From a candidate division WOR-3 bacterium (GTDB lineage: Bacteria > Hydrothermota > Tepidihabitantia > SM23-42): a DNA stretch of 64,000 nucleotides. The notes beneath the pieces are model-generated. The model ran no database searches. It was not told the origin of the DNA and saw only the letters and a program-made list of their open reading frames with translations. Location: assembly GCA_029858255.1 (NCBI GenBank), contig JAOUFJ010000011.1, positions 1 to 64,000 on the forward strand, read 5' to 3'. The first letter of the stretch is position 1. Each line of letters begins with the position of its first letter. A program made the position numbers and the translations under genes. Shown piece after piece: positions 18,408-61,538 of this stretch.

Positions 18408-18422
18408 TAAGTGTAGAAATAC

Positions 18423-19464: not shown

Positions 19465-19484
<20 letters not shown>
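18423..19484 (+). CDS. recF: DNA replication and repair protein RecF
   Basis: SMC-like ATPase that loads RecA at gaps through RecOR. The 353-aa product begins with the RecF hallmark ILKRVRYQGFRNLVDAEIDF, then Walker A GDNGAGKTN (30-38). The ABC signature region reads YASEGEERAASISLKLAEAE (SQGQQR in E. coli RecF), and Walker B is PILLLDEVSAELD near the C-terminus. It opens a recF-DUF721-gyrB cluster, a classic near-origin order, though dnaA and dnaN are not in the window. Confidence 0.95.
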
Positions 19485-21724
<2,240 letters not shown>

Positions 21725-21733
21725 GGAGGACAG

Positions 21734-22801: not shown

Positions 22802-22810
22802 GGGGGCGGA

Positions 22811-23302: not shown

Positions 23303-23304
23303 GG

Positions 23305-24069
23305 ATAAAAAACAGCAGTAGTACTACACAGGTCTGGGATAGATTCTGGTCTGGTAAACACCCGGACACTATATACCCACCCGTTACAAATATCGTCGAA
23401 GAATTAGAGGCAGTATCACACATAAGAGACAAAAGGATTCTTGAGGTTGGCGCCGGCACTGGCCGTGATGGTCTCAGGATGCGGGAACTGGGAGCGGATG
23501 TATATTTACTGGATTATTCGAAGGAGAGTCTGCGCATCATTCGTCTCCTGTCAACGAATGACCCGGTGAAGATGATTCTTGGTGATGCCAGAAATTGTCC
23601 TTTCGAGGATGGAACTTTCGATGTCGTATTCCATCAAGGTCTGCTGGAGCATTTTCCTTCACCCTGGCATTTGTTGAATGAGAATGCCAGGATATTGAAG
23701 AGAGGCGGATTATTGATCATCGACGTGCCCCAGACATTTCATTTCTATACCTTGATGAAACATTTGCTAATGATTCTGGGATTGTGGTTTGGCGGTTGGG
23801 AACGGCAGTTCACTCCAGGCTCCCTGGCCGGAATGCTCAAAAGACTTGGATTTGCACCGGTTCATGTTTATGGTGATTGGTCAAGACCCGGCGTCGTATA
23901 CAAGATCATAAGACAGTTGTTCATGAAAGTCGGGATTGCGTTGCCGATGTACCCAAAGTTCTTTGGTGCGATCACAACATGGTGGAACGAGCTCCAGTCC
24001 AAATTGAGGAGAAAACGGCTATTCCTCTACACTGTTCTCTCAATTGGTGTTATCGCCCGGAAGATATAG
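23305..24069 (+). CDS. SAM-dependent methyltransferase (class I), start codon uncertain
   Basis: Predicted to methylate an unknown small molecule or lipid. Motif I, LEVGAGTGRDGL, is encoded at about 23438-23475, followed by YLLDYSKES, GDARNCPFEDGTFDVVFHQGLLEHF and LKRGGLLIIDVPQ. The first ATG in frame (23479) lies after motif I, so it cannot be the real start. The frame is open from 23290 and gives a normal start region (VWDRFWSGKHPD), but it contains no ATG, GTG or TTG. ATA 23305 is the best of the rare choices; a lost start or an indel is the alternative. About 254 aa from 23305. Convergent with the transglycosylase gene, 2 bp away. Confidence 0.7.
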   Translation: MKNSSSTTQVWDRFWSGKHPDTIYPPVTNIVEELEAVSHIRDKRILEVGAGTGRDGLRMRELGADVYLLDYSKESLRIIRLLSTNDPVKMILGDARNCPFEDGTFDVVFHQGLLEHFPSPWHLLNENARILKRGGLLIIDVPQTFHFYTLMKHLLMILGLWFGGWERQFTPGSLAGMLKRLGFAPVHVYGDWSRPGVVYKIIRQLFMKVGIALPMYPKFFGAITTWWNELQSKLRRKRLFLYTVLSIGVIARKI

Positions 24070-24071
24070 AT

Positions 24072-24635
24072 CTACTTAGGCAAATTCGTGAAGTGCGGTG
24101 TGCCGTCTTCAGTTATAGAGAAGTAGACTGGGTTTTTCTTGCATCCGCGCCCGTACCTGGAGAGTATATAGTCGACATACTCTAGGGTAGCGGGAATTTG
24201 TGGCACCCTCTTGAGTCTGCGCACCAGCCCAGGTCCAGCGTGGTATGCAGCGAGGGCCAGTTCAAGATCTTCCCCGAAAAGACCGAGCAGATGGCTGAGA
24301 TATTTAACTCCGCCTTTTATGTTCTCACGGGGATTGTAGGGATCTTTGACTCCCAGTCCGCGGGCCGTTTCCGGCATCAGTTGCATTAGGCCGATTGCGC
24401 CACTGCGCGAAACCGCACGTGGATTGAATTCGGATTCTTTGCGGATCACTATCTTTATCAATTCTGGGTCTACATCATACAGCTGACAGTAGTGTTTGAT
24501 AATATGATCATACTCCTCGCAGACAAACTCTCGGTGTGGTACACTTCCCTGATCGACGGAAGGGATGTTCGTAAACAGAACATTTCCAGTTCTTGTCGTT
24601 GAGATTATCTGTCCGAGCAAAAGTAGTATTATCAT
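24072..24635 (-). CDS. Lytic transglycosylase (Slt-type, GH23)
   Basis: Cleaves the MurNAc-GlcNAc bond of peptidoglycan with 1,6-anhydro formation. 187 aa: signal-like helix MIILLLLGQIIST, then the SLT domain from about residue 45 with the catalytic Glu in IVIRKESEFNPRAVS, SGAIGLMQLMPETARGLG, and the AAYHAGPGLV motif. The C-terminus has a short tail (VYFSITEDGTPHFTN). The ATG at 24633-24635 lies 6 bases after the -10 box; the TTG at 24641 would fall next to that box and is rejected. Confidence 0.93.
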   Translation of the reverse strand: MIILLLLGQIISTTRTGNVLFTNIPSVDQGSVPHREFVCEEYDHIIKHYCQLYDVDPELIKIVIRKESEFNPRAVSRSGAIGLMQLMPETARGLGVKDPYNPRENIKGGVKYLSHLLGLFGEDLELALAAYHAGPGLVRRLKRVPQIPATLEYVDYILSRYGRGCKKNPVYFSITEDGTPHFTNLPK

Positions 24636-24641
24636 TGGCAA

Positions 24642-24669
24642 ATATTACACAAGATTCATATTTTGTCAA
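24642..24669 (-). promoter_or_regulatory. Leaderless promoter of the lytic transglycosylase
   Basis: Minus strand TTGACA, 16 bp, TAATAT, then 6 bases to the ATG. Confidence 0.8.
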
Positions 24670-24701
24670 GAGTTTTTTGACGCTACACGCTACAAAAGGA
24701 A

Positions 24702-24755
24702 CGTTACTACCGTTGGTTTCGTTATTCCCGTTAATACCGCTATTCCCGTTCATAA
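24702..24755 (+). repeat. 9-bp tandem repeat array C1 (6 units)
   Basis: CGTTACTAC, CGTTGGTTT, CGTTATTCC, CGTTAATAC, CGCTATTCC, CGTTCATAA. It lies on the + strand although both neighbouring genes are on the minus strand. Confidence 0.8.
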
Positions 24756-24769
24756 CGATAACGAAAGAT

Positions 24770-24900
24770 TACCGTTCGAGTGAAGTCGAGAACCGTAACG
24801 AACCCGTATCGTCTGGCGTCAAACGGTTGCGAAAAGCGATACGTTTTCGAAAGACGGTTTCTGTTTTGTGCCGTAAGACGTAGCGGCTTAACGAAACGGG
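24770..24900. repeat. Dispersed repeat with CGGTTGCGAAAAGCGA and CGAAAGACGGTTTC blocks
   Basis: The block CGGTTGCGAAAAGCGATACG (about 24825-24844), followed by TTTTCGAAAGACGGTTTCTG, has a counterpart at 49388-49425. That copy reads CGGTTGCAAAAAGCGAATCGG with TTTCGTCTTTCGAAC. No coding frame is supported. Confidence 0.5.
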
Positions 24901-24968
24901 CATCGTAATCCTTGAAAGTAACCGAGTAATTTGTTATTGATATTTCGCAATTCGCAATTTACACAGGA

Positions 24969-25011
24969 CGTTAGGTCCGTTAGTCTCGTTACTCCCGTTA
25001 CTATCGTTCCC
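24969..25011 (+). repeat. 9-bp tandem repeat array C2 (4-5 units)
   Basis: CGTTAGGTC, CGTTAGTCT, CGTTACTCC, CGTTACTAT and a partial CGTTCCC. It is preceded by the near-palindrome TTTCGCAATTCGCAATTT (24943-24960). The pair 'palindrome then array' repeats the design of 13931-14061. Confidence 0.75.
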
Positions 25012-25200
25012 TTTCTCATCTTCATAAGGTCTCATGTTCTGTTGTGCAGAGTTCTCATCTTCTTACCCTCTTAACTTCTGATCTTCTGGTTTAGTTTGTC
25101 TCTTGTCTTTTCAATTTCTGGCGCGTCAAGCCTTATCAGTTCTATCCTTCTCCGCTTCTCAACGTCTAATCTTCTGAACTTCTTATTGCCTTAATTTCTG
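25012..25200 (+). repeat. Pyrimidine-rich CTTCTTAAC repeats downstream of array C
   Basis: CTCATCTTCATAAGG, CTCATCTTCTTACCCTCTTAACTTCTGATCTTC and later AATCTTCTGAACTTC units run up to the cyclase stop codon. With arrays C1 and C2 they account for almost all of the 560-bp gap; no gene is seen in it. Confidence 0.65.
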
Positions 25201-25205
25201 ATGTA

Positions 25206-26864
25206 TTATGTTTTCAGTCCCGTGACCTCAAATATTTCTACGGGGCGGCTGATGTTCTTGAGTTCAACAGGCGGGAGTTGCTTTGCTTCAATGAATTCTT
25301 TTGTACAAGCATATGTCGACCGGCTGATGATTATCTGGCCCTTCTTTGCCACGTTTTCCAGGCGGGATGCAAGGTTTACTGCAGTGCCGACGACCGTATA
25401 CTCCATGCGCTTGATACTGCCGATATTGCCTGCGATAACCTCGCCGGTATGGATGCCGATACCGATCTCGAATACTTCCAGCATCGATGCGTCGATTTTG
25501 TTACGCCATCGCTCTCTGAGTTGCTGGACGCGTTTCTTCATGCCCAGGGCTGCTTTTATGGCGCGCAGGGCATCGTCCGGATGCGCGACAGGCGCGCCAA
25601 AAATGGCCATCACGCAGTCGCCTATGTACTTGTCCAGCGTGCCTTCGTGGGTAAAGACTTCTTCAGACATGCTGCTGAGAAAGTCATTTAGGATTTCCAC
25701 AGAGGTGATGGTGGGAATTCTCTCGGTCAGCGAGGTGAATCCCCGGATATCGCTGAAGAGAATCGTCGCAGTGCGGTTCTCACCACCCAGAGATACTGCT
25801 CTCTTGTCTGACATGATCTCGCTGACGACGCCGGGCGAAAAGAAACGCTGAAGACGCTCGCGTATCCTTTCTTCCTCCTTAACCTTTTCGTACAACTGGG
25901 CGTTTTCTATCGCAATTGCCGCCTGATTGGCAAAAGAGGACATGAAATCGATGTCATCACGGTCGAATTTCTTATGGGCAACCGGGTTGTCGAGGTAGAT
26001 TATGCCGATCCTTTCGTTTTCTTTTGAGATCAATGGCACGCAGACGACCGAGCCGATCGCGTAGCTAATGACACTATCCTGAGTCATGAACCTTTCATCC
26101 TTTGTTGCATCCTCGGTGTTGATCGGTTTGCCTGTCTTGAATGCTTGCCATGCAATGCTCTGGCTGATCTCGTGCGTTTTGTCCGGGTCGAGAACACCGC
26201 CCATGTTTCTTGCTACCTTAACCTTCAGTATATTGGAAGGTTTGTCATGGAGCATGATGAAACCCCGTCGCGCCTGCAATATTTTGATGGCGAGATCCAT
26301 GAGTAGGTTGAGTAGTACGTTGAGATCGAAAACAAAATTTATTATTTTACCGACTTCGCAGAGAGTCGAGGCTATTTCCTTGATCTTCTCTACCTCGGTC
26401 AGATTTTCCTCGTATTGCCTGAAATGGCTTTCTATCTCGCTGAGCGATTTGAGAATTGTATCTGTGCTTGCCCCCTCACGAATTGCGTTTCTTATTGAAT
26501 CGATCTTTGCTGGAATGTCGATCTTGGCGCCGATGAGGCGTGCTGGTTTTCTGGGACTCGGTATCTGGTCTAATTTATTCTCGTCGACAAAGGTAACGAC
26601 CGTGTTACCAAGTTGGATTTCATCACCATAATCCAATCTTGTCTCGGTTACACGAGCACCATTTACAAATGTTCCGTACCGGCTGTGCTCGTCACGTATG
26701 TAGTAGAATATCCCTCTTCTTTCAACGGCGGCATGTGTACGCGACACGTAAATATCGTCGAGTACAATGTCGTTATCCGCGCGGCGTCCGAGGGTGATGC
26801 GCGGTTTCTCGAGTTTGACTACTCTTGTATCATCTTCTGCTTTATGGACAAAGAATGTCGCCAT
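25206..26864 (-). CDS. FHA-GAF-class III adenylate cyclase
   Basis: 552 aa. FHA domain at 1-95 with the phospho-Thr pocket LGRRADNDIVLDD (Arg27), VSRTH (Ser41, His44) and GTFVNG. GAF sensor about 165-325, then a short coiled linker. Cyclase domain about 360-552: metal Asp372 in FSDIRGFT and Asp416 in DKYIGD; substrate pair Lys412 and Thr490 (EYTVVG), which is the class IIIb ATP-specific combination; transition-state Asn497 and Arg501 in VNLASR. All catalytic residues are present, so cAMP synthesis is likely. It is the last gene of an operon led by a Ser/Thr kinase, so the FHA domain may dock the phosphorylated kinase or its target. The role of the GAF ligand is unknown. Confidence 0.93.
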   Translation of the reverse strand: MATFFVHKAEDDTRVVKLEKPRITLGRRADNDIVLDDIYVSRTHAAVERRGIFYYIRDEHSRYGTFVNGARVTETRLDYGDEIQLGNTVVTFVDENKLDQIPSPRKPARLIGAKIDIPAKIDSIRNAIREGASTDTILKSLSEIESHFRQYEENLTEVEKIKEIASTLCEVGKIINFVFDLNVLLNLLMDLAIKILQARRGFIMLHDKPSNILKVKVARNMGGVLDPDKTHEISQSIAWQAFKTGKPINTEDATKDERFMTQDSVISYAIGSVVCVPLISKENERIGIIYLDNPVAHKKFDRDDIDFMSSFANQAAIAIENAQLYEKVKEEERIRERLQRFFSPGVVSEIMSDKRAVSLGGENRTATILFSDIRGFTSLTERIPTITSVEILNDFLSSMSEEVFTHEGTLDKYIGDCVMAIFGAPVAHPDDALRAIKAALGMKKRVQQLRERWRNKIDASMLEVFEIGIGIHTGEVIAGNIGSIKRMEYTVVGTAVNLASRLENVAKKGQIIISRSTYACTKEFIEAKQLPPVELKNISRPVEIFEVTGLKT

Positions 26865-26893
26865 ACGCTACATACTACTTGTCAGCAGAAGAA

Positions 26894-27826
26894 TCATGGT
26901 GTGACATATACGTCGTCGAAGTTAGCCTTGGCTTCTTCGGCGGGGTCGTCGGACTTCAGCCAAAGTCCGGAAATTCCGTCAAGCAAAGGAGAGGATGCGT
27001 CATCTAAATTGAACAGTTCAGCATAATCCAGATATACTTCAATATTGTTACCGTGTAGGTGAGCAGCGACAAAATACCAGGTATCCGCCGCAAAATTCAT
27101 GGTATCGGCGATCGCCATCGGGAGGGGGCTGCCGTCGCGGATTTTCACAACGGATATCGAACTGGTGGTGAACTGCACCAGGTAGTAGTTGTTCGCATCC
27201 TGGTACCTTAATACAAGGCCGACCCTCCATGCCCAGCCCGACGAGCCCAGTATCTTGATGTTGGCACCAAACCAGAAATCATCGAGTGTATCCCTGACGG
27301 CAGCAAAGGAATACGCGCTGGTTGTAGTGTTATTCGTGGCAGTGTATACCATGGGCGCTGAATGCTGGACAGGTTCGCCATAGTCTTCCTGAATTTGCCA
27401 GGTGCCGATCAGTTGGCGGAAACCAAATGGTTCCCCGGTACCGGATTGTTCATTCTCAAAATTGAAGTAAAGTTCCTGGAAATACAAGTCGAACGAATCC
27501 ATGTGTGTATATGACTTTATCTCCACATCTTCGAAATAAAGTGTGCTGTAAAATTGCGCTTCGGCAACCAGTGTGTAAAGACCCGGATCGACCTCGGCAA
27601 ACTCGTAGTTACCCTCGAAATCGGTTTGTGTGCTGTACTTGTCTTCATCCCCAATCTTCAACTTAACAGTTGCACCTTCAAGGAAAGCCCCGGTGTGGTC
27701 GTAAGCCGTGCCAGCCAGGTAACCCTTGTCCGGGTTGTTCGGGTCATAGGGATTATCCCGCGGCGGCTCCAGACACGCCAGCGTTACCAGAAGCGTTAAG
27801 CATACCGTCACTAAAAGTCGTCTCAT
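26894..27826 (-). CDS. Lipoprotein with carboxypeptidase-regulatory-like domain and LamG-like fold
   Basis: 310 aa. Signal peptide with lipobox LVTLAC (Cys18), then PPRDNPYDPNNPD. Residues about 33-105 are a CarboxypepD_reg-like beta sandwich (GYLAGTAYDHTGAFLEGATVKL ... GNYEFAEVDPGLYTLVAEA). The second half (about 140-310) looks like a concanavalin/LamG-type jelly roll (WRVGLVLRYQDANNYYLVQF, GISGLWLKSDDPAEEAKANFDDVYV), often carbohydrate-binding. The protein is predicted to sit on the periplasmic or outer side of a membrane. It is the third gene of the kinase operon (11 bp after the DUF5683 gene, 29 bp before the cyclase gene), so it could be the envelope sensor of that circuit. Confidence 0.75.
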   Translation of the reverse strand: MRRLLVTVCLTLLVTLACLEPPRDNPYDPNNPDKGYLAGTAYDHTGAFLEGATVKLKIGDEDKYSTQTDFEGNYEFAEVDPGLYTLVAEAQFYSTLYFEDVEIKSYTHMDSFDLYFQELYFNFENEQSGTGEPFGFRQLIGTWQIQEDYGEPVQHSAPMVYTATNNTTTSAYSFAAVRDTLDDFWFGANIKILGSSGWAWRVGLVLRYQDANNYYLVQFTTSSISVVKIRDGSPLPMAIADTMNFAADTWYFVAAHLHGNNIEVYLDYAELFNLDDASSPLLDGISGLWLKSDDPAEEAKANFDDVYVTP

Positions 27827-27837
27827 TTTTCCCTCCG

Positions 27838-28665
27838 CTAGAATTTAAGGTTGTAGCCGATGCGCACTTGTTCTTCATCGAATGAGCAGATGAAGCCGCG
27901 GTCTGATTCGAGCAGCGATGTTCTGACCGATGGCTTGTGGAAGATGATATCATAAAGATTGTAAGCATGCACACCGAGGAATAACAACGCGTTGATCAAA
28001 GTAATGTTATGCCATAACTTGTATTCTTCATAGGCATCGTCAAATGCGGTCGAGGGCTGGGTCCAGTAAAGGTCCATGTACTTGTCGTGTTTGTTTTCTC
28101 TTATTATCGACGAGCCGAGGGTGCTGACGAGGGTAACGCCGTAGGCGATCATCAATTTTGTGCCCTTGCTCTTTTCGCCGCGGTATATTTGACCCCAGCC
28201 GGCAACACAGCACGAACGGATCGTCGCGTCAAAGCCACTGATTTCTCCTTTCCCGGGTGGTGCGGCGGGTTCGGTCGGTTCCACCACTGGCGCAGCGGAA
28301 ATCTCTGCTTTCGCTTCTTCGAATACCTTTATTATTTTGGGCGAAACCGTGGCGGCGTCCAATTCCATTTCTGGATCAAGCGCCAGTGCTTTCTTGAATT
28401 GGGTTTTCGCTGTAGTATGGTCCCCGAATGCAACATAGCTGAAAGCCAGGTACTTGTATGCTTCTACCTGGTCGGCATGCTTTAGCTGTTTCAGGTATCG
28501 CAGGGCATTCTCCAGCTCCCTTATTGCAGACTCATATTCACCCGTGTAATAATAATCCTTTGCCTTGTTGAGCATGGTCTCGAGCGAATCCTCCGTAACC
28601 GACTGCGAGAACCCGATCTGTATCATCAGGCAACTGAACAGTACTATCCTGACTATCCTTATCAT
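27838..28665 (-). CDS. TPR and DUF5683 domain envelope protein
   Basis: 275 aa. Signal peptide (MIRIVRIVLFSCLMIQIGFS), then about three TPR-like repeats (AKDYYYTGEYESAIRELENAL, YKYLAFSYVAFGDHTTAKTQFKKALALDPE), then a Pro/Ala-rich linker. The C-terminal DUF5683-like part reads SCCVAGWGQIYRGEKSKGTKLMIAYGVTLV, with two hydrophobic helices. DUF5683 proteins are common in the FCB group and unassigned. It is the second gene of the kinase operon, 9 bp from the kinase stop. Confidence 0.75.
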   Translation of the reverse strand: MIRIVRIVLFSCLMIQIGFSQSVTEDSLETMLNKAKDYYYTGEYESAIRELENALRYLKQLKHADQVEAYKYLAFSYVAFGDHTTAKTQFKKALALDPEMELDAATVSPKIIKVFEEAKAEISAAPVVEPTEPAAPPGKGEISGFDATIRSCCVAGWGQIYRGEKSKGTKLMIAYGVTLVSTLGSSIIRENKHDKYMDLYWTQPSTAFDDAYEEYKLWHNITLINALLFLGVHAYNLYDIIFHKPSVRTSLLESDRGFICSFDEEQVRIGYNLKF

Positions 28666-51801: not shown

Positions 51802-51829
51802 TTGACAAAGAGGATTTTTTTGTTATAAT
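51802..51829 (+). promoter_or_regulatory. Consensus promoter of the marR-hdr-flx operon
   Basis: Perfect TTGACA, 16 bp, perfect TATAAT. The start point expected near 51836 lies inside the inverted repeat 51834-51862, so a protein bound there would block the polymerase. Confidence 0.88.
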
Positions 51830-51833
51830 ATAG

Positions 51834-51862
51834 TTGCTAATAGCAATTGTTGTTATTAGCAA
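51834..51862. promoter_or_regulatory. Probable MarR operator (perfect 9-bp inverted repeat)
   Basis: TTGCTAATA (51834-51842), 11-bp spacer, TATTAGCAA (51854-51862). Perfect dyad, 20-bp centre to centre (two helical turns), placed at +1 of the promoter and just before marR: the usual autoregulation layout of MarR dimers. Confidence 0.85.
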
Positions 51863-51878
51863 TAAAGGTGAATCAGAT

Positions 51879-52289
51879 ATGAGCAAAAAGCTATTTGAAC
51901 TTATTATTATGCTGATGAAAAAATGCCAGCTGACCGAAACTAAGATCAGAAATGAATTTGGTCTTTCGGCAGCAGAATACAACGCGCTCCTGACGATCAG
52001 ACGCGACGAGAAAATGTTGTGTAACGCGTTTTCGGAGAAGATGGGTCTTTCTGCATCCAGGGGCAGCCGGATCATCGACCGCCTCAAGAAGAAAGGATTC
52101 GTCAAGGGCGAGGCAGTACCTGATGACCGTAGGATTCTCAAAATTTCAATGACCGATAAGGGTATAGAGTTGAAGAACCTTATCGGCAAGAGAATGGATG
52201 AATGCGAAAACAATATATTGGGTAAGTTATCGACACAGCAGCGTGAGGATGTACGCAACGCACTCGAGATGCTGTCGGAGATAATGTAG
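51879..52289 (+). CDS. MarR family transcriptional regulator
   Basis: 136 aa. Winged helix: LSAAEYNALLTIRRDEKMLCNAFSEKMGLSASRGSRIIDRLKKKGFVKGEAVPDDRRILKISMTDKG, including the wing DDRR and the recognition helix ASRGSRIIDRL. Dimer helices flank it. Cys residues at about 13 and 49 could sense redox state, but this is only inference. ATG 51879 follows AAAGGTG; the frame from 51834 would start inside the operator. First gene of the nine-gene operon; likely repressor of it. Confidence 0.92.
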   Translation: MSKKLFELIIMLMKKCQLTETKIRNEFGLSAAEYNALLTIRRDEKMLCNAFSEKMGLSASRGSRIIDRLKKKGFVKGEAVPDDRRILKISMTDKGIELKNLIGKRMDECENNILGKLSTQQREDVRNALEMLSEIM

Positions 52290-52303
52290 TCGAAAGGACG
52301 TTT

Positions 52304-52783
52304 ATGAAGGGAAGAGAAATCGCCGAAGCAACTGTGGTCAATTATGCACAGATGTTTGACCTCTCACTCACTAAGGACAAAATGATGGACATGATGCCCG
52401 GGCTCCTGCTCTTTCTCGCCCGGCGACCCGAGATGATTACACAGGTATTGGAGAGAATGCTTCCGATGATGGAGCAAATGAATATCGAAGTCAGTCACGA
52501 TCTATTGATAGAGATGATGCCGTCTGTAGTCAAGGCTGTGAATATGGAACCGGGATTGGGAGGCGATGTCTTCAAGAGAATGGTCCCGATGATGGATGCG
52601 TTCAAACTCAAGATGAACTTCTATGTTATGAAAAATGTCATGGGTATGATGATGTTGATGATGATGCGCCATCCGACGGCAATTCCCGGTATGATGAAAG
52701 TGATGCCCAAGATGATGGATTTCAGTTTCTACACAAATTTTACGAGTAAGATAAAAGGAGTATTCCATGCACGAAACAAATAG
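52304..52783 (+). CDS. Unrecognised methionine-rich protein (31 Met in 159 residues)
   Basis: 159 aa, no family recognised. Almost one residue in five is Met, often as MM pairs or runs (KDKMMDMMPG, ERMLPMMEQMN, KRMVPMMDAF, MGMMMLMMMRHP, GMMKVMPKMMD). A loose repeat 'M(L/V)PMM...(L/M)(N/K)' occurs about every 45 residues at 50-60, 95-105 and 128-140. It is predicted to be mostly helical and amphipathic, has no signal peptide and no Cys. It lies between marR and hdrC and overlaps hdrC by 17 bases. It could bind a soft metal (Cu(I), Hg), cushion hydrophobic partners or help assemble the Hdr complex; none is shown. AAAGGAC precedes the ATG. Confidence 0.8.
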   Translation: MKGREIAEATVVNYAQMFDLSLTKDKMMDMMPGLLLFLARRPEMITQVLERMLPMMEQMNIEVSHDLLIEMMPSVVKAVNMEPGLGGDVFKRMVPMMDAFKLKMNFYVMKNVMGMMMLMMMRHPTAIPGMMKVMPKMMDFSFYTNFTSKIKGVFHARNK

Positions 52784-53465
52784 GGATTGGCTGCCTGGTT
52801 TCGATAAGAAATTTGCCGAACTCACCCATCAGATGGTAAAAGATCTGGAAAAATGCCTGCAGTGCGGTAAGTGCACCGGACAGTGCCCGGCAGCGAAGTT
52901 ATCTTCATACAACCCGAGAGAGATCATACGCGATCTGCGCATGGGCAACGTGGAAAAAGTGATCAGCAGCCACGAATTATGGTTGTGTTTTTTCTGCAGC
53001 GGCTGTTACGCAGTGTGCCCGCGGGACATAAATTTCCCGTTCGCGATTTCCATGTTGCGCTATGCTGCGCTCGCGCAGGGATACGGCTGGGAAGAAGTGA
53101 AGAAGATTAAGGACCCGTATGCTCAGGATTATTACAATACAGGTCTCTCGGTGAATATCAACGAGAGGAATATCGGCGTTAAAAGAGAGATCGCGAAGAA
53201 TTCAGGAACCGATGGTCGGATCGAAACGGTACGCAAAAAGATGGGTTTGCCGCCCAAGAGACAGGTGTCGGAACGCGCGATGAGCGAGATCAAGTTCATC
53301 GCCGATGCGACGGGAATGACCGATCTGTTCAAAGAAATAGACAAGAAACAGGCGAAAGAGAAGAAATGGAACTACGGCAGTGCGGCTGACATGGTTAAGG
53401 TTAAGAAGGGGCCGAATCAGAAATTCATCGACGTTGAGGAAGAAGATAAGGAAAAGATATGTTGA
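52767..53465 (+). CDS. hdrC: Heterodisulfide reductase-like subunit C
   Basis: 232 aa iron-sulfur electron carrier between HdrA and HdrB. Two 4Fe-4S motifs: CLQCGKCTGQCP (Cys30, 33, 36, 40) and CFFCSGCYAVCPRDINFP (Cys74, 77, 80, 84). The later part is charged and helical, ending EDKEKIC. AAAGGAG precedes ATG 52767, inside the previous gene. The order hdrC-hdrB-hdrA is standard. Confidence 0.93.
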   Translation: MHETNRDWLPGFDKKFAELTHQMVKDLEKCLQCGKCTGQCPAAKLSSYNPREIIRDLRMGNVEKVISSHELWLCFFCSGCYAVCPRDINFPFAISMLRYAALAQGYGWEEVKKIKDPYAQDYYNTGLSVNINERNIGVKREIAKNSGTDGRIETVRKKMGLPPKRQVSERAMSEIKFIADATGMTDLFKEIDKKQAKEKKWNYGSAADMVKVKKGPNQKFIDVEEEDKEKIC

Positions 53466-53478
53466 GGAGGATTTAAGC

Positions 53479-54432
53479 ATGCCACGCCAGGAAATATTAG
53501 AGAAAACAAAATTGTCAGACAGGATGTTTCTGTTCCAACCATGCGTCGGGAGTAACAAATACCCCGGCTTGATCACCGCATCGATCGAATTCTTCCGCAA
53601 GCTCGGGATCGAACTCGTGACCAGTGATGATCAAACATGCTGTGGAGGTTTCCTGACCTTCACCAATGTTGCCCAGCCGACGAGCACAATGCCCGCAGTG
53701 GCGCGTAATATCGCGGTGGCCGAGGAAATGGGTTTGGATATTCTTACGCTGTGCAATGGATGTCATACATTCCTGACTGAATTTTCACATTTTATGAATG
53801 ACCGTCCACCCGTGAAAAACGTGGTCAATGTGATATTATCCATGATCGGCCGCGAGTACAAGGGTAATCAGGACATATACCATTCGCTGGAGATAATCTA
53901 CAAGCTGAAGGAGCGTATCCGGGCAAACGTGACCCGGCCGCTCAATGGTATGAAATTCGCCACTCATTACGGATGCCACTACTTGAACGGCTTCAAGAAA
54001 ACCGCTTTAGATGATCCTCACATGCCGACGATCATGGAAGAACTTATCGAGGCTATGGGCGGTGAGATCGCGGAGTACGGCGAGAACAGGACTTGCTGCG
54101 GCACGGGTTTGACACAGATCATCATCAACAAGGAGGAATTGTCGCTGCCGCATACGAAGATGAAACTGGACAATCTGAACGCGGCTGAGCCGGACGCAGT
54201 AGTTGTCGTCTGTCCGTACTGTCTTGCCCAGATCGACAGGATGCAGCAGAAATTGAACTACCGCCGATCGGGCAAGTACCGGGTACCGGTCATTCATCTG
54301 GTTCAACTCATCGGACTGGCACTCGGAGTCGATATCGTGAAACTTGGTTTTGATGCGCACGCGATCAGCTTCAAAGATTTCTTGAAGAAATTCGATTCGA
54401 TCCACGCGAAAGCAGAGGTGCATAATGGCTAA
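53479..54432 (+). CDS. hdrB: Heterodisulfide reductase-like subunit B
   Basis: 317 aa, the subunit that reduces a disulfide in Hdr. Both CCG cluster motifs are complete: Cys22 / Cys54-Cys55 / Cys92-X2-Cys95, and Cys166 / Cys206-Cys207 / Cys245-X2-Cys248 (FQPCVGSN, DQTCCGGF, CNGCHTFL, HYGCHYLN, NRTCCGTGL, CPYC). Two non-cubane 4Fe-4S clusters are therefore expected. GAGGAGG places the start at 53479; upstream frame to 53380 lies in hdrC. The natural substrate in this organism is unknown: methanogen coenzymes are not expected. It overlaps hdrA by 8 bases. Confidence 0.94.
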   Translation: MPRQEILEKTKLSDRMFLFQPCVGSNKYPGLITASIEFFRKLGIELVTSDDQTCCGGFLTFTNVAQPTSTMPAVARNIAVAEEMGLDILTLCNGCHTFLTEFSHFMNDRPPVKNVVNVILSMIGREYKGNQDIYHSLEIIYKLKERIRANVTRPLNGMKFATHYGCHYLNGFKKTALDDPHMPTIMEELIEAMGGEIAEYGENRTCCGTGLTQIIINKEELSLPHTKMKLDNLNAAEPDAVVVVCPYCLAQIDRMQQKLNYRRSGKYRVPVIHLVQLIGLALGVDIVKLGFDAHAISFKDFLKKFDSIHAKAEVHNG

Positions 54433-56383
54433 GGTTGGTGTATTCGTATGTCATTGCGGGGTAAACATCGCGGCCAAGGTGGATGTGAAGAAGGTCGTCG
54501 ACACGCTGAAAGATATGCCTGAGGTCGGCTTCGCTCAAGAATACAAATTCATGTGCTCTTCACCCGGGCAAGAACTTATCAGAAAAGCGATCAAGGATAA
54601 CAACATTAACCGTGTAGTCGTTGCTGCCTGTTCACCGCGCATGCATCTACCAACTTTCCAGAAAGCACTGGCGAGCGAAGGATTGAACCCGTATCTCGTC
54701 TCCATGGCGAATATCCGCGAACAGTGCAGCTGGGTGACCGATGATCCGGCTGAGGCTACGCAGAAAGCGATCGACCTTGTAGCACGGCAGATAAAGCGGG
54801 TTGTGCACCAGGACCCCCTGGATGAGATTTACGTGCCCATGACCAAGACCGCTCTGGTCATCGGCGGGGGTATTGCCGGCATCCAGGCGGCGCTCGATAT
54901 CGCGGACGGTAATCGCAAGGTAATTCTCGTGGAGAAGAGCCCGAGCATTGGCGGCCGCATGGCACAGCTTGACGAGACTTTTCCGACACTGGACTGCAGT
55001 CAGTGTATTCTGACCCCGAAGATGGTCGAGGCAGCACAGCATCCGAACATCGAGATCCGGGTCAATTCAGAAGTGAAAAAAGTTGATGGTTACGTAGGCA
55101 ACTTTGAAGTTACCATTGAGAAAAAAGCGACGTATGTCGACGCGCAAAAGTGTATTGGTTGCGGAATTTGCCAGGAGAAGTGTCCGGTCAAGACAGTGCC
55201 GGATGACTTCAATGCCGGGCTGAACACGCGCGCCGCCATCGCCATTCCTTTCCCTCAGGCAGTACCTGCGATCCCAGTTATTGAAGCAGATTACTGCAAG
55301 AAACTGATTGAGAACAAGTGCGGTGTGTGTGCGAAAATATGCCCGGCCGAAGCAGTAGTTTATGATGACACTCCCAAACAGGAGACGGTGAATGTTGGTG
55401 CCATTGTTGTCGCCACCGGATACAGGGAAATGGACCCGGCAGTATACACAGAATACGGGGGCATGAAGTATCCCGACGTCATTACTGGCATGCAGTTCGA
55501 ACGTCTCATTTCGTCGACCGGTCCGACCGGTGGCGAGTTGAAACGACCGAGCGACGGTAAGATACCCAAGACCGTGGTTTTCGTTCAGTGCGTGGGCAGC
55601 CGTGATGAATCAAAAGCACATGCTTATTGCAGTGGTATATGTTGTATGTATACGGCCAAGCACACGATGCTATACAAACACCACGTACCTGACGGCCAGG
55701 CGTACGTGAGTTACATCGACGTGCGGGCGCCGGGAAAGACCTACGAAGAGTTCGTCAGAAGGGCGATCGAAGAGGAAGATGTGAGATATCTACGTGGTCG
55801 TGTGGCGAAGATCCGTCGTCTGCAGAACGGGCAGTATCGTGTCTACACCGAAGATACGCTGGTCGGAAGAGCCGTGCATATCGACGCGGACATGGTCGTT
55901 CTTGCGAGCGCGGTAGAACCTCAGAAAGACGCGGTGGGATTGGCTCAGATCCTTGGTATCGCCTGCGATGCGGATGGTTTCTACACCGAAGCACATCCAA
56001 AATTGAAGCCCATCGAAACTGCGAGTGCTGGTGTTTTCCTTGCTGGCGCATGTCAGGGTCCGAAGGACATACCGGCGAGCGTCCAGCAGGGCAGCGCGGC
56101 AGCCAGCAAAGTTCTCGCTTTATTTGCCAAGGACACAATGGTCAAGTCGCCCCAGATCGCTGCCGTTGACCCGACTGCCTGTACCGGTTGCCTTACCTGC
56201 TCGTATGTCTGCCACTACTCGGCGATCGAGGAAAAAGAGTTTGGCAAACGGCGCGTTGCCGAGATCATTCCCGGCAAGTGTCAGGGGTGCGGTGCATGCG
56301 TGGCAACGTGCAAAGGAAAGGCGATTACGCTAGCCGGATTCAGCGACGATGAGATCTACGAGGAGATCGTATCATGCAGATAG
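54425..56383 (+). CDS. hdrA: Heterodisulfide reductase-like subunit A (FAD, bifurcating)
   Basis: 652 aa flavoprotein. N-terminal domain with VGVFVCHCGVNIA and CSPRMHLPTFQKAL; Rossmann FAD site ALVIGGGIAGIQAALDIAD near 143-161; CSQCILTPKM near 191. The inserted ferredoxin domain at 240-310 has CIGCGICQEKCP then CGVCAKICPAEA, and a C-terminal ferredoxin pair (about 588-640) has CTGCLTCSYVC and CQGCGACVATC. No selenocysteine is needed (VCHCG keeps Cys). HdrA splits electrons from the donor flavoprotein between HdrB and ferredoxin. It overlaps flxD by 10 bases. Confidence 0.95.
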   Translation: MAKVGVFVCHCGVNIAAKVDVKKVVDTLKDMPEVGFAQEYKFMCSSPGQELIRKAIKDNNINRVVVAACSPRMHLPTFQKALASEGLNPYLVSMANIREQCSWVTDDPAEATQKAIDLVARQIKRVVHQDPLDEIYVPMTKTALVIGGGIAGIQAALDIADGNRKVILVEKSPSIGGRMAQLDETFPTLDCSQCILTPKMVEAAQHPNIEIRVNSEVKKVDGYVGNFEVTIEKKATYVDAQKCIGCGICQEKCPVKTVPDDFNAGLNTRAAIAIPFPQAVPAIPVIEADYCKKLIENKCGVCAKICPAEAVVYDDTPKQETVNVGAIVVATGYREMDPAVYTEYGGMKYPDVITGMQFERLISSTGPTGGELKRPSDGKIPKTVVFVQCVGSRDESKAHAYCSGICCMYTAKHTMLYKHHVPDGQAYVSYIDVRAPGKTYEEFVRRAIEEEDVRYLRGRVAKIRRLQNGQYRVYTEDTLVGRAVHIDADMVVLASAVEPQKDAVGLAQILGIACDADGFYTEAHPKLKPIETASAGVFLAGACQGPKDIPASVQQGSAAASKVLALFAKDTMVKSPQIAAVDPTACTGCLTCSYVCHYSAIEEKEFGKRRVAEIIPGKCQGCGACVATCKGKAITLAGFSDDEIYEEIVSCR

Positions 56384-56808
56384 AAAAAGAACCAAAAATC
56401 CTGGCAATCTTGTGCAAATGGTGCAGCTACGCAGGAGCCGATCTGGCAGGCACGAGCCGTTTCGCCTACCCGGCAAATGTCAGGATCGTCCAGGTTCCGT
56501 GTTCGGGCAGGGTCGATCCGATAATGATATTCAAGGCATTTGTTGAAGGCTACGATGGCGTTATGGTGAGTGGTTGCCATCCGGGCGATTGCCACTACAC
56601 TACGGGGAATTATCACGCGCGTCGCAGGATAGCGGTTGCCCGTCGGTTGCTTGAGTTTGTGGGCGTGCATCCTGACCGCATGCATTTTACCTGGATCTCC
56701 GCGGCCGAAGGCAAGAAATTCGCCGAGGTTTGTTCCCGTTTCACGGATAAACTAAAGAACCTGTCCGGAACCGAAAAGACACTCGCGCGGAAGGAGCTCG
56801 CGACATGA
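56374..56808 (+). CDS. flxD: MvhD/FlxD-type hydrogenase iron-sulfur subunit
   Basis: 144 aa 2Fe-2S protein that links HdrA to its electron donor. Family pattern: LCKWCSYAGADLAG (Cys14, Cys17), RIVQVPCSGRVDP (Cys43), VSGCHPGDCHY (Cys68, Cys73) and LLEFVGVHPDRMHFTWISAAEG. In methanogens its partner is a [NiFe] hydrogenase (MvhAG); here no hydrogenase follows, but three Flx-like genes do. ATGA overlap with the next gene. Confidence 0.93.
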   Translation: MQIEKEPKILAILCKWCSYAGADLAGTSRFAYPANVRIVQVPCSGRVDPIMIFKAFVEGYDGVMVSGCHPGDCHYTTGNYHARRRIAVARRLLEFVGVHPDRMHFTWISAAEGKKFAEVCSRFTDKLKNLSGTEKTLARKELAT

Positions 56809-57650
56809 ACGAGATGAGAAACAAGATCGAGGAACTTTTCAAGAACGGAGAGATCGATGCAGTGCTCGGTTATCGCGAGGATCCAGCAACCGGTGAAGTT
56901 AAGGCGGCTGTCTTCAAGAAGGATGAAGCACTCGATGATATGGTCTTCGACGGAAGATGTGTGCAGAATTTGGTTAATTACTTGCCCACCCTTGTAGCAC
57001 GATACAGGAAAGTCGGTATCGTATTGAAAGGGTGTGACGGGCGTTCACTGGTAACCCAACTGGTTGAGCACCGTATAAACAAAAACCAGATAGTCGCGCT
57101 TGGCGTTGGGTGCGAAGGCGTGAAGTTAGATGGTAAAGAAGCGGACAAGTGTGATGATTGCGCTACCAGCATGTCGCCGATCGCCGATTATGAATTCGGC
57201 GAGAAAAAGCACAAGAAAGAACCGGCGTTTTCGAAGGTTGAAGAAATAGAGAAGATGTCGCCGGCTGAACGCTGGAAATTCTTCGCTGATTATTTCGCAA
57301 GATGCGAACGTTGTTACGCGTGCCGGCAGATCTGTCCTTCCTGCTATTGTGAGATCTGCGTTGCAGACCAGCAGGAACCAAAGTGGATTGAACCCTCGGC
57401 AAAACTCTCGGCCAATACCATGTGGCATCTGATCAGAGCATATCATCTGGCCGGACGCTGTGCGGATTGCGGAGAGTGTGAGCGTGTATGCCCGCAGGAG
57501 ATCCCGATGAGACTTCTGAATAACGCACTGGAAAAAGCCGTCCATGAATTATTCGACGTCCGTCCCGGGACGGTGCCCGATGAGATTCCACCACTTGTCG
57601 TGTTGAGCAAGGAAGACCCGGATACGATTCTGGAGGGCAAAAATGAATAA
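56805..57650 (+). CDS. flxC: 4Fe-4S electron-transfer protein of the Flx module (FlxC-like)
   Basis: 281 aa. The N-terminal 140 residues resemble the FrhB/sulfhydrogenase-beta type fold (VLKGCDGRSLVTQLVEHR, VGCEGVKLDG). Two 4Fe-4S motifs follow: CERCYACRQICPSCYC (Cys167, 170, 173, 177) and CADCGECERVCP (Cys219, 222, 225, 229). An added Cys cluster in KCDDC (116, 119) could hold a further site. It resembles FlxB/FlxC of Desulfovibrio Flx-Hdr complexes; which of the two letters it deserves is uncertain. Overlaps flxD by 4 bases and flxB by 8. Confidence 0.82.
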   Translation: MNEMRNKIEELFKNGEIDAVLGYREDPATGEVKAAVFKKDEALDDMVFDGRCVQNLVNYLPTLVARYRKVGIVLKGCDGRSLVTQLVEHRINKNQIVALGVGCEGVKLDGKEADKCDDCATSMSPIADYEFGEKKHKKEPAFSKVEEIEKMSPAERWKFFADYFARCERCYACRQICPSCYCEICVADQQEPKWIEPSAKLSANTMWHLIRAYHLAGRCADCGECERVCPQEIPMRLLNNALEKAVHELFDVRPGTVPDEIPPLVVLSKEDPDTILEGKNE

Positions 57651-58686
57651 GTGGCATAAGATGAAGCGAACCGATCTGCAGAAATTCGTCTCCCGGCTTG
57701 CGGAAAAGTGGGAGGTATGGGTGCCTTACCGCGCAGACGGCAAGTGGGAATTCGGCATTTACGATGCCATGAAGGATCTGGATTTTCCGGAGAGTATAAT
57801 ACACGTTTCGCTGAAGAGCCTGTTCTTCCCCAAGCGGCGTCCCGTAGCCAAATACGAAGAGGATAGCAAGTGGTCTCTGCAGGCTGTCGTTCCGGAAGAC
57901 AGACCGCGTATCGTCATTGGTCTGCATCCTTGTGATGTTGCCGGCATCGAATACATGGACAAGGTTTTCTTGAAATCCGAACATAAGGATGCGATGTACG
58001 AAGCGGAACGAGAACGTACTATGTTGATCGGTATGATCTGCAGCGAGATGGAAGATAATTGCCATTGTACGGACCGGGGACTGGCCCCGGATTCTACGCG
58101 TGGTATGGATGTCGCTTTCGTAGAGGCAGATGACCACTATCTATTCAAAAGCATGACCGACAGGGGAAAACAGGTTATGCAATCCGAATATCTGAAGGAA
58201 GTTGATGAGAAGCCGGAGAAAAAAGAGTGGCCGGCCGGCAAATACGCAATTGCATCTCCTGAAGAATTCATGGAGATGTACGATGACAAGATCTGGCATG
58301 AACTGTCGGATATATGTTTGACTTGCGGTATTTGCACCTACGCATGTCCGACCTGTGTCTGCTTTCTGGTGACCGATGAAAAGTTTAAAGGTAAGGGTGA
58401 GCGCGTAACGGTCTGGGACAGCTGTCAACTGCAATCTTATTCGAGAATGGCGGGCGGACATAATACGAGGAAAACACCTGCGAGCCGGGTGCGTAACCGG
58501 ACCCTTGATAAGTTCGCCTACAGTCATCTAAGGTACGGTCAGATCTCGTGTACTGGCTGCGGTCGGTGTGTAATGGTCTGTCCATTGAAGAGAAGTTTTC
58601 CCCAGCTCGGCGCCCGTCTTTCAGAAAGAATAGAGGAAAAGAAAAAGGGTAAAGCCAAAGCCGGTACGCGGTCAAAGGAGGCTTGA
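57643..58686 (+). CDS. flxB: 4Fe-4S dicluster protein, HydB/AsrA-like (FlxB-like)
   Basis: 347 aa. Same family as sulfhydrogenase beta (HydB) and anaerobic sulfite reductase A. N-terminal RTDLQKFVSRLAEKWEVWVPY; then VIGLHPCDVAGIEYMDKVF, NCHCTD, and two 4Fe-4S motifs CLTCGICTYACPTCVC (Cys225, 228, 231, 235) and CTGCGRCVMVCP (Cys303, 306, 309, 313), with DSCQLQSYSRMAGGHNTR between. Predicted to pass electrons from FlxA to FlxC/D. Only one base separates its stop from flxA. Confidence 0.85.
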   Translation: MNKWHKMKRTDLQKFVSRLAEKWEVWVPYRADGKWEFGIYDAMKDLDFPESIIHVSLKSLFFPKRRPVAKYEEDSKWSLQAVVPEDRPRIVIGLHPCDVAGIEYMDKVFLKSEHKDAMYEAERERTMLIGMICSEMEDNCHCTDRGLAPDSTRGMDVAFVEADDHYLFKSMTDRGKQVMQSEYLKEVDEKPEKKEWPAGKYAIASPEEFMEMYDDKIWHELSDICLTCGICTYACPTCVCFLVTDEKFKGKGERVTVWDSCQLQSYSRMAGGHNTRKTPASRVRNRTLDKFAYSHLRYGQISCTGCGRCVMVCPLKRSFPQLGARLSERIEEKKKGKAKAGTRSKEA

Positions 58687-58687
58687 T

Positions 58688-59503
58688 ATGACGACGATCG
58701 AACTCGTGCCAAAACCAGCAACGATCAAGAAGGTAATTGAAGAATCTAGAGACGTTAAGAGCTATGTCTTACAGATGAACAGAGCCCAGAAAATGGCGGC
58801 CCGCCCCGGGCAGTTTGTTGAAGTCTCTGTTCAAGGCTTCGGTGAAGCAACCTTCGCGGTCACCCGGACCGCCAAGGACAAAACCGACTTCACGATCTCT
58901 GTCAAGCGAATGGGGCATCTAACAAAAATGCTGCATCGTGCAGCACCGGGTGACGTAGTCGGCGTCCGAGGACCGTATGGAAACAGTTTTCCGGTCGATG
59001 CCTGGAAGGGGAACGGTATAGTCGTGATCGGCGGCGGTATTGGGTTGGCGCCGCTACGTCCGGTCATAGACCATATCCTGCAGCACCGGACGAATTTCGG
59101 TAAGCTGGAGATCATTTTTGGTGCGCGTACACCCGATGACATTCTTTACAAAGAAGATCTCAGGATATGGGAAAATGATAAGAGCATTGCATTACATACA
59201 ACGATAGATGTACCGTTTGAAGGCTGGAGCGGTCGGGTCGGGGTGGTGCCGGTCGTTGTCAAGGATCTGGCACCGAGACCGGACAACAAAATAGCGATCG
59301 TTTGCGGACCCCCCATAATGATAAAATTCACCGCTGCTGCACTGAGGGAATTGAAATGGCCGGGTAATAGAGTTTACACGACACTCGAGATGAAAATGCA
59401 GTGTGGTATCGGTCAGTGCGGTCGGTGTAACATAGGTGAGAAATTTATCTGTAAGGATGGTCCCGTATTCAGTTTGGACCAGATCCCAGAACACGCGCTA
59501 TAG
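58688..59503 (+). CDS. flxA: FAD/NAD(P)-binding reductase of the Flx module, HydG/AsrB-like (FlxA)
   Basis: 271 aa of the ferredoxin-NADP reductase superfamily: FAD-binding barrel (RPGQFVEVSVQGFGEATFAVT), NAD(P) domain with VVIGGGIGLAPLRPVID and IIFGARTPDDILYKEDL, CGPPIMIKFT, and a C-terminal 2Fe-2S motif CGIGQCGRCNIGEKFICKDG. It would take electrons from NAD(P)H (or return them) for the Hdr-Flx complex. Last gene of the operon; a weak hairpin follows at 59548. Confidence 0.88.
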   Translation: MTTIELVPKPATIKKVIEESRDVKSYVLQMNRAQKMAARPGQFVEVSVQGFGEATFAVTRTAKDKTDFTISVKRMGHLTKMLHRAAPGDVVGVRGPYGNSFPVDAWKGNGIVVIGGGIGLAPLRPVIDHILQHRTNFGKLEIIFGARTPDDILYKEDLRIWENDKSIALHTTIDVPFEGWSGRVGVVPVVVKDLAPRPDNKIAIVCGPPIMIKFTAAALRELKWPGNRVYTTLEMKMQCGIGQCGRCNIGEKFICKDGPVFSLDQIPEHAL

Positions 59504-59570: not shown

Positions 59571-59694
59571 GTTTCATTTGTAGAATCATTGACCGTTTAA
59601 TCTTCAGTTTTGTGAAACTTTTTGCCCCTTGGCTGCGTATATTATAGTGATGGCTAACAAGAAAAGAGCGTTCACAAGAAAAGAAGGAGGAATA

Positions 59695-59985
59695 ATGAGA
59701 ATTTACCTGGCTATTTTGCTCTTATTGAGCGTGTCGGTCGGGCAAGCATTGTCTGATAAGGATGAATATGACGGCTTGATGCCTGCGGTTGAGGTTGTTG
59801 CCAGCAGATGCAATTTTGAAGGGCCTGCGTACGTCGGGTCATTACCTGCTGTTGATGTTACGGCTCCACGATACGAATTTGAAGACGACGCATGGAGCGG
59901 TTTGATGCCGGAGACTATAGTCACAGCAGTACGCACCGCACCCGTGGATATTGCCTATCTTGGCAGCGCGGGGTTCGCTCGATAA
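59695..59985 (+). CDS. Small secreted protein with three TonB-box-like repeats
   Basis: 96 aa: signal peptide MRIYLAILLLLSVSVGQALS, then three copies of a 21-residue unit: YDGLMPAVEVVASR (25-38), YVGSLPAVDVTAPR (46-59), WSGLMPETIVTAVR (67-80). The unit resembles the 'MPEVVVTATR' opening of TonB-dependent receptors (TonB box plus plug start), here without a receptor. GGAGGAATA precedes the ATG; the frame to 59629 lacks one. Eleven bases before the peptidase lipoprotein. The function is unknown. Confidence 0.8.
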   Translation: MRIYLAILLLLSVSVGQALSDKDEYDGLMPAVEVVASRCNFEGPAYVGSLPAVDVTAPRYEFEDDAWSGLMPETIVTAVRTAPVDIAYLGSAGFAR

Positions 59986-59996
59986 CCAGTGACATC

Positions 59997-61538
59997 ATGA
60001 AACGGCGAATGTTGTATGCTTCAATATTTCTCCTGGTGGTCGGTCTGACCGGATGCTCTCACTATGCCGCCCGGGAGATGAGCAGTGAGCGTTACCTCAG
60101 GCGGTATCTTGATGAAAATGAGAACATATATGAAGATATTTGTGTGCAAATGGGTTCGGCATACTGGAATTATTATGCTCAGGAGGCCGAAGCCGATCTT
60201 GCCACGCCGCGCGAGCGTTTCAGGGAATTACTGACGAGTGATACACTTAACAGGGTTGTCGAATCCTGGTATTCCAACAGGATGGCGATCAAAGATCAGG
60301 TACTGAGAAGCAGGGTGATAGTCTGGCATAATGTACTCACCGCGGCAAAGGTTGAGATGGATCCGGAAATATTCGACCTCAGGAATAGATTGGAAATGTG
60401 GCTCGCTGAGACCGACGACGTTTCTTCTATTCCCTCCAGAGAGGAGATGGACAGTGTTATGCTGAGGCTGATGGAATTACGCAATACCAGATCACAGAGT
60501 CTTGGGTTTGAAAATTTCGCTGAACTGGTTTTGGAGGTAAACGGTATCGGTGCCGAATGGTTCTATGAATTAGTTAAGAAAATAGATGCCGCCACCGCAG
60601 AACCGTATGCAGAATTATTGGAGGAACTCAAACAGGAACTGGGCAAGTCTGAGATCGATGCCAATGATATTGGCAAATTGTTCGGTCTGTACTACGTAAC
60701 AAATCAAGGCGCTCCAATCCCGGCAGAAAAGATGGATTCTCTGATTATGGAGACGATCGAAGGCATCGGTATTGAATTCGAAGATTTGAACGTCGATATC
60801 GTTGAACAGGACTTGCCCGGTGGGGTAGGTGGTCAGTCACTTGCCATTCGCATACCTGAGGATTTCAAGGTTGTCGTGATGGATGACCTTTCATTCTATG
60901 ACCGGGTGCATGAGATCGGACATGGCGCCCAGTATACGTTTACCGCGATCGGTTATCCGATATTAGAGGGCTATGAATGGTGTTTGGGAAGCGACTGCGG
61001 CGCATATTCTGAAGGTATTGCCGAGACCCTCGCCAAGTTCGTTCGCAGTGATGAATGGCAGAGAAGAAATGGGGAAATGGGTGACGAAGATATCATGGCT
61101 CAAAAAGAGTTGCTCAGAAAGTATATGCCGCTGTACCTTCGCACTCTACTAGTTAACTCTATGTATGAAACTGCACTATACGATGATCTGGCACGAGACC
61201 ATCTGGAAATATGGCAGATGCTCCATAAGAAGTATCTTTCATTAGAAAAATCGACGTTCAGACCGATCCCATTTGCCAATATCATTCACGTATCTTATCC
61301 CATATATGTACAGAATTATTTGATCTCCGATGTAATTGCCTGGCAGATACACGAAACTCTCCAAGACAAATTCGGTACCGCCTACGCGTTTGACACGCGT
61401 GTCGGACCTTTCTTGAAGGAATACTTCTACAATGATGGCGGATTGATTCCATGGCAGATGCGGTTGAAAAACGCGACCGGCAGAGCACTCGATATTGATG
61501 GTTACCTGAGTGCTGGTGGTTTAGAGGGAAAAGAATAA
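59997..61538 (+). CDS. Lipoprotein zinc metallopeptidase (M2/M3-like gluzincin)
   Basis: 513 aa. Lipobox VGLTGC (Cys20), then a long helical body. The zinc motif is HEIGHGAQY in YDRVHEIGHGAQYTFT, with the third ligand Glu in YSEGIAETLAKF about 40 residues later, the M2/M3 (ACE/thimet oligopeptidase-like) spacing. The helical N-terminal part (EDICVQMGSAYWNYYAQEAEADL, ARFRELL) is also like M3. It probably degrades peptides in the periplasm or at the outer membrane. Start at ATG 59997; the frame from 59892 overlaps the small repeat protein. Confidence 0.85.
   Translation: MKRRMLYASIFLLVVGLTGCSHYAAREMSSERYLRRYLDENENIYEDICVQMGSAYWNYYAQEAEADLATPRERFRELLTSDTLNRVVESWYSNRMAIKDQVLRSRVIVWHNVLTAAKVEMDPEIFDLRNRLEMWLAETDDVSSIPSREEMDSVMLRLMELRNTRSQSLGFENFAELVLEVNGIGAEWFYELVKKIDAATAEPYAELLEELKQELGKSEIDANDIGKLFGLYYVTNQGAPIPAEKMDSLIMETIEGIGIEFEDLNVDIVEQDLPGGVGGQSLAIRIPEDFKVVVMDDLSFYDRVHEIGHGAQYTFTAIGYPILEGYEWCLGSDCGAYSEGIAETLAKFVRSDEWQRRNGEMGDEDIMAQKELLRKYMPLYLRTLLVNSMYETALYDDLARDHLEIWQMLHKKYLSLEKSTFRPIPFANIIHVSYPIYVQNYLISDVIAWQIHETLQDKFGTAYAFDTRVGPFLKEYFYNDGGLIPWQMRLKNATGRALDIDGYLSAGGLEGKE

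Follow-up and report, generated by a model that had tools for sequence, protein, structure and literature searches.

A methionine-rich companion of one HdrC/HdrB lineage in a putatively MarR-repressed Hdr-Flx operon of a candidate division WOR-3 bacterium

The 64,000-nucleotide stretch of DNA analyzed here (the window) lies on contig C11 of a 2.72 Mb genome (G000) whose closest relatives are metagenome-assembled genomes labelled candidate division WOR-3. Positions 51802-59503 of the window hold a promoter, an operator and then nine close-packed genes on the same strand, namely marR, a gene for a methionine-rich (Met-rich) protein, hdrCBA and flxDCBA. These nine genes are best explained as one operon under MarR repression for an anaerobic electron-splitting enzyme of the known FlxABCD-HdrABC kind. 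Taken jointly with all its parts, the explanation that we favor and consider rather likely is that of a MarR-repressed operon for an NAD(P)H-oxidising Hdr-Flx complex, equipped with a Met-rich subunit or assembly factor and delivering electrons to a terminal acceptor other than DsrC. Comparison across genomes indicates that the Met-rich protein truly belongs with one HdrC/HdrB lineage as a conserved companion, because it is linked to that lineage, is co-inherited with it and is under purifying selection. The features of the operon are as follows.

51802..51829, + strand: sigma-70-type promoter TTGACA-16-TATAAT, -10 element preceded by TG (12/12 match)
51834..51846, no strand assigned: first operator palindrome TTGCTAATAGCAA, 13 bp, just 3' of the -10 element
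51850..51862, no strand assigned: second operator palindrome TTGTTATTAGCAA, 13 bp, 16 bp from the first
51879..52289, + strand: marR, MarR-family regulator of 136 residues (PF12802, E=7e-10)
52304..52783, + strand: Met-rich protein of 159 residues, no family match, three 41-residue repeats (residues 24-64, 65-105 and 106-145)
52767..53465, + strand: hdrC, two CX2CX2CX3C motifs, 17-bp overlap with the Met-rich gene
53479..54432, + strand: hdrB, two CCG cysteine sets (Cys22/54/55/92/95 and 166/206/207/245/248; PF02754, E=8e-28; TIGR03288, E=2.4e-72)
54425..56383, + strand: hdrA, FAD domain and four ferredoxin-type sites (5odc_A, E=1.3e-200)
56374..56808, + strand: flxD, FlpD/MvhD family (PF02662, E=1e-52; MvhD 9sw2_D, E=1.5e-45)
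56805..57650, + strand: flxC, Fer4 protein with two CX2CX2CX3C motifs (7bkb_E, E=5.9e-22)
57643..58686, + strand: flxB, iron-sulfur subunit resembling sulfhydrogenase beta, AsrA and HydB (9nez_B, E=7.9e-43)
58688..59503, + strand: flxA, AsrB/HydG-like, FAD/NAD(P)-binding with a 2Fe-2S site (Cys239/244/247/255; 9nez_C, E=1.6e-49; PF00175 and PF10418)

The coordinates of the open reading frames confirmed the tight spacing of nine genes described in a first-pass annotation of this DNA, adjacent genes being separated by 14, 13 and 1 bp or overlapping by 17, 8, 10, 4 and 8 bp. The single consensus promoter named there was likewise recovered, with its extended TG; a scan of 10 kb gave 17 promoter-like sites, of which it ranks best, and its -35 and -10 elements are kept in five other genomes. 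Terminator-like sites within the operon number 7, against 8.7 expected by chance. Promoter, operator and gene order are all kept in related genomes, and the arrangement is therefore not a product of chance. The order hdrCBA-flxDCBA, which the annotation had singled out as a special feature, is not one, since the operon of Bilophila wadsworthia is written in the same order (PMC12125255). Downstream of flxA, positions 59629-61538 hold a small open reading frame and a zinc-peptidase-like protein, both of which also lie downstream in four relatives, and a strong terminator was not found between flxA and the small frame.

Profile searches detected the Met-rich protein in 7 of 147 WOR-3 genomes; the seven represent one phylum, two families and three genera. 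In all seven carriers the gene stands directly 5' of hdrC, as the first-pass annotation had proposed to check, and this linkage supports its suggestion of an extra protein tied to hdr, in the form of a lineage-specific one. Past these carriers, a search of 390 genomes, many other phyla included, returned only weak unrelated matches. Those outside WOR-3 (L032-L034, E 0.025-0.07) were rejected as homologues, for their surroundings contain no Hdr or Flx genes and the matches are thus due to chance. A scan of GTDB contigs with two conserved Met-rich peptides found the same lineage only and no further phylum. The HdrC of the linked lineage occurs in exactly the seven Met-rich carriers, and the HdrB proteins of these genomes share 69-96% identity (69% being that of G116, the most distant carrier) versus 39% for the next best, with no intermediates in the 390 genomes. 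Within the genus, the ratio of nonsynonymous to synonymous substitution rates (dN/dS) of the Met-rich gene is 0.04-0.06, which demonstrates strong purifying selection.

Eighteen further regions with FlxC homologues were fetched, one of which proved to be the displaced flx end of the operon in carrier G012 and 17 of which were other Hdr-Flx-type clusters. A Met-rich gene of this kind is absent from all 17, some of which are cut at contig ends; here as elsewhere, absences were called in metagenome-assembled genomes at most 97% complete and are consistent across several genomes. The gene is hence dispensable for the module in general, which would suit a reading of it as an unrelated passenger in the operon leader, with only the Hdr-Flx part of consequence. 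We regard such a passenger as very improbable, given that in seven genomes from two families the gene has stayed beside hdrC even where marR was lost or gained, that selection on it is strongly purifying and that it co-occurs exactly with one HdrB/HdrC lineage. One of the 17 clusters belongs to G000 itself (contig C26, about 15300-28560; L103:1300-14561). It is larger than the operon described here and contains several HdrA-like segments, two FlxD, an HdrC-like protein and then flxC, flxB and flxA, without marR or a Met-rich gene. In the G012 scaffold, hdrA is broken by a run of N and fused to an unrelated gene (L011:6977-7080, G012:C1), and the end of flxC, flxB and flxA sit about 350 kb away (L104); the break is probably a scaffolding error of the published 'chromosome'.

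Analysis of the Met-rich protein itself revealed 31 methionines (19.5%), zero cysteines and a net charge of +5. Its 41-residue period has a self-score of 82, compared with a shuffle mean of 28.8 and equalled by none of 2000 shuffles. With Met-Met matches zeroed the score is still 43, equalled by 1 of 2000 shuffles, and the repeat is therefore not merely a matter of composition. In the best AlphaFold2 model (mean predicted local distance difference test score, pLDDT, 77.9, from a shallow alignment) the protein has eight helices, which include one helical hairpin per repeat (24-40/42-58, 65-81/83-99 and 106-122/124-137). No Pfam, NCBIfam or PHROGs family was matched at E<=0.001, with weak unrelated Pfam matches only; no PDB entry was matched by sequence, and no PDB or viral structure by fold at E<=0.001. 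A search of the operon region against Rfam gave no match. With zero cysteines the protein cannot be the disulfide itself, and it was rejected as a thiol substrate of HdrB. The operon locus of G116 (L017), a genome of another family whose base composition agrees with that of its genus mates, encodes a homologue (L017:5051-5488) that has one cysteine and lacks the C-terminal 20 or so residues, so that the tail falls outside the conserved core. The idea that this gene is broken by a TGA was discarded; the TGA is the natural end at 145 residues, and the C-terminal tail is variable.

The operator consists of two adjacent palindromes of the form TTGYTAnTAGCAA, which begin 5 bp past the -10 element and overlap the transcription start. 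The first-pass annotation had described a perfect operator-like dyad; the operator stands while its perfection does not, since the arms of a single outer dyad are only 92% complementary and the site is really two 13-bp palindromes. Such 13-mers (<=1 mismatch) are expected 0.43 times by chance in the window and gave four strand-matches, all at the two palindromes. The tandem operator (<=3 mismatches) occurs in exactly one copy in each of six genomes, each time before marR, and is absent from G116 and from three genomes of the same genus that lack the operon. Promoter and both palindromes are conserved in these six genomes of two genera although MarR identity falls to 47%. The winged-helix domain of MarR passes the Pfam cut-off (PF12802, 39.4 bits versus 27), and dN/dS of marR is 0.06-0.08. 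On this sequence evidence, MarR control of the operon is credible. The only operator of this kind in the genome is the one at the promoter that precedes all nine genes, so MarR is predicted to control only this operon, itself included, which answers the annotation's concern that it might regulate itself alone. Its claim of MarR control is thus supported here, through the conserved predicted operator, but not for the module in general; marR and operator are both missing from L017, where the Met-rich gene comes first behind its own TTGACA-16-TATCAT promoter. The presence of the Met-rich gene in a locus without marR and operator suggests that its link to hdr predates MarR control or is the firmer of the two.

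Alignment of six MarR sequences demonstrated that Cys16, Cys48 and Cys109 are invariant, a pattern that fits thiol-based sensing. These cysteines also bear on a protective role, in which the methionines of the companion protein shield the complex by scavenging oxidants or by binding a soft metal such as Cu(I), with MarR as oxidant or metal sensor. The 31 methionines among 159 residues are mostly invariant, and the complex abounds in oxygen-labile clusters. Nevertheless, the methionines are fixed in the repeat pattern alongside Pro, Asp, Glu and Lys residues that do not vary, as in a folded scaffold, the operon contains no metal or oxidative-stress gene, and one operator per genome leaves no wider stress regulon of that kind. 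Shielding is accordingly a role to which we give little credence.

Examination of the Hdr and Flx subunits by position confirmed that their cluster motifs are intact, as the first-pass annotation had stated for the HdrB CCG, HdrA ferredoxin and FlxA FAD/NAD and 2Fe-2S motifs. The genes for HdrA, HdrB, HdrC and FlxA-D lie in one cluster, both HdrB CCG sets and the flavin and iron-sulfur ligands of HdrA are retained, and FlxA has its FAD/NAD(P) domain and 2Fe-2S site, all of which places the system among the FlxABCD-HdrABC enzymes. In HdrA, Cys389/402/406/407 are conserved relative to 5odc, and the motifs deviate only at one ferredoxin site (CX7CX2CX3C at 291-306), where five extra residues are inserted, as they are in L017 too. 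The closest solved structures are 9sfi for HdrB (E 5e-60) and 8rvv for HdrC (E 4e-18). The C-terminal part of FlxC resembles FdhB of Hdr-formate dehydrogenase complexes (7bkb_E), and members of the FlxC family are common in WOR-3 as well as in other bacteria (74/390 genomes at E<=1e-20). FlxA and FlxB match sulfhydrogenase gamma and beta subunits and the operon is without a hydrogenase subunit, in keeping with the earlier proposal that NAD(P)H is the likely donor of an Hdr-Flx module.

The disulfide acceptor of the Desulfovibrio complexes, named in the same annotation, found no support in the search for DsrC (PF04358), which is absent from all seven carriers and was found in 4 of the 147 WOR-3 genomes, in 3 of them above the cut-off. 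Also absent from the carriers are MqnA/MqnD and MenD, markers of both menaquinone pathways; UbiA-family prenyltransferases are present and do not pin down a quinone. These absences leave the HdrB branch with neither the Desulfovibrio partner nor an evident menaquinone pool. Electrons from HdrB do not end up on DsrC, and probably not on menaquinone either.

The need for an acceptor other than DsrC lends interest to a role of the Met-rich protein as a membrane or quinone adaptor that passes Hdr-branch electrons to the membrane, like ForE, the DUF1641 subunit of the menaquinone-linked formate dehydrogenase of Bacillus. The protein is small, all-helical, hydrophobic and cofactor-free and its gene lies beside a redox complex; ForE is a comparable partner that is required for menaquinone binding (PMC8808070), and the HdrCBA-MvhD complex of Sporomusa is partly membrane-bound (PMC9430772). 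Kinship with DUF1641 (PF07849), an idea prompted by the 40-residue helical unit and the redox context, was nonetheless rejected, with no match at E<=10 and an hhalign probability of 0.5%. Together with the missing MqnA/D and MenD in all carriers and a 19-residue hydropathy that peaks at only 0.96, this renders an adaptor quite improbable. DUF1641 proteins of about 160-195 residues do occur in 11 WOR-3 genomes of other families (L039-L049); in most of the loci fetched, their genes adjoin a flavoprotein resembling sulfide:quinone oxidoreductase, and a further DUF1641 gene in G085 adjoins DsrC. By analogy with ForCE, these proteins could possibly be quinone-linking partners.

The favored explanation, that of a MarR-repressed operon for an Hdr-Flx complex with its own companion protein, can be put as a sequence of steps. 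As judged from homology, a soluble complex would oxidise NAD(P)H, with FlxA taking the hydride, and electrons would run from FlxA through FlxB, FlxC and FlxD to HdrA, whose flavin would bifurcate them to ferredoxin on one side and to HdrC-HdrB on the other. The Met-rich protein would be a small all-helical partner dedicated to its HdrC/HdrB lineage and would dock on HdrC or HdrB, most likely either as an accessory subunit in stoichiometric amount or as a factor devoted to assembly. Linkage, co-inheritance, the overlap with hdrC and selection are observed, and from them we infer the contact with HdrC or HdrB. MarR would occupy the two palindromes at the transcription start, repressing its own gene together with the eight that follow; a small molecule, or thiol chemistry at the conserved cysteines, may release it. 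Several points weigh against this account. The Met-rich protein could work elsewhere and be merely co-transcribed, all linkage evidence comes from one phylum and three genera only, the five AlphaFold2 models were built from 7 similar sequences and scatter (pLDDT 46-78), and the module in L017 lacks MarR, which is hence no integral part of it. A more far-reaching version, in which the Met-rich protein founds a new Hdr-partner family that gives the divergent HdrC/HdrB a new terminal acceptor or docking site, with NAD(P)H-driven bifurcation dependent on neither DsrC nor menaquinone, appears unlikely.

The WOR-3 operon bears on the question of what serves as oxidant of the HdrB branch in bacteria without DsrC or methanogenic thiols. 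The lineage offers its own HdrC/HdrB with an invariant partner, and the ligand of its simple repressor should point to the substrate. The operon also supplies a concrete pull-down target and a family of unannotated proteins. A recent WOR-3 survey reports Hdr together with Mvh and leaves Flx unmentioned (PMC12542636). The FlxABCD-HdrABC of Desulfovibrio vulgaris is a described system (Ramos et al. 2015, cited in PMC5296606). D. vulgaris and B. wadsworthia share with the WOR-3 operon the seven Hdr and Flx subunits and NADH as proposed donor (PMC12125255). Unlike theirs, the WOR-3 operon is headed by marR and the Met-rich gene, has a separate HdrC/HdrB lineage and lacks an alcohol dehydrogenase, and its genome lacks DsrC. 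DsrC is the disulfide partner proposed for Desulfovibrio, and membership in FlxABCD-HdrABC does not require it. The methanogen HdrABC-MvhD complexes (5odc, 8rvu, 7bkb) have homologues of HdrA, HdrB, HdrC and MvhD whose cluster ligands are also present in the WOR-3 operon, which has NAD(P)H-type FlxA/FlxB instead of their hydrogenase or formate dehydrogenase. A methanogenic heterodisulfide is not to be expected in a WOR-3 bacterium. The beta and gamma subunits of Pyrococcus furiosus sulfhydrogenase I (9nez) match FlxB and FlxA over nearly their full length, whereas its alpha and delta hydrogenase subunits have no counterpart in the operon. ForE of the ForCE formate dehydrogenase (PMC8808070) is likewise a small helical partner of a redox enzyme, an analogy only, with undetectable sequence kinship. 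sHdrR of Hyphomicrobium is reported to be a sulfane-sulfur repressor of ArsR type that acts on the sHdr genes (PMC12423496); it resembles the WOR-3 MarR as a dedicated repressor of an Hdr-type cluster and differs in family, operator and the Hdr system served. The core is thus a new member of the known FlxABCD-HdrABC kind with a gene order already described, and what sets it apart is its Met-rich companion, a distinct lineage of HdrC/HdrB and a MarR of its own.

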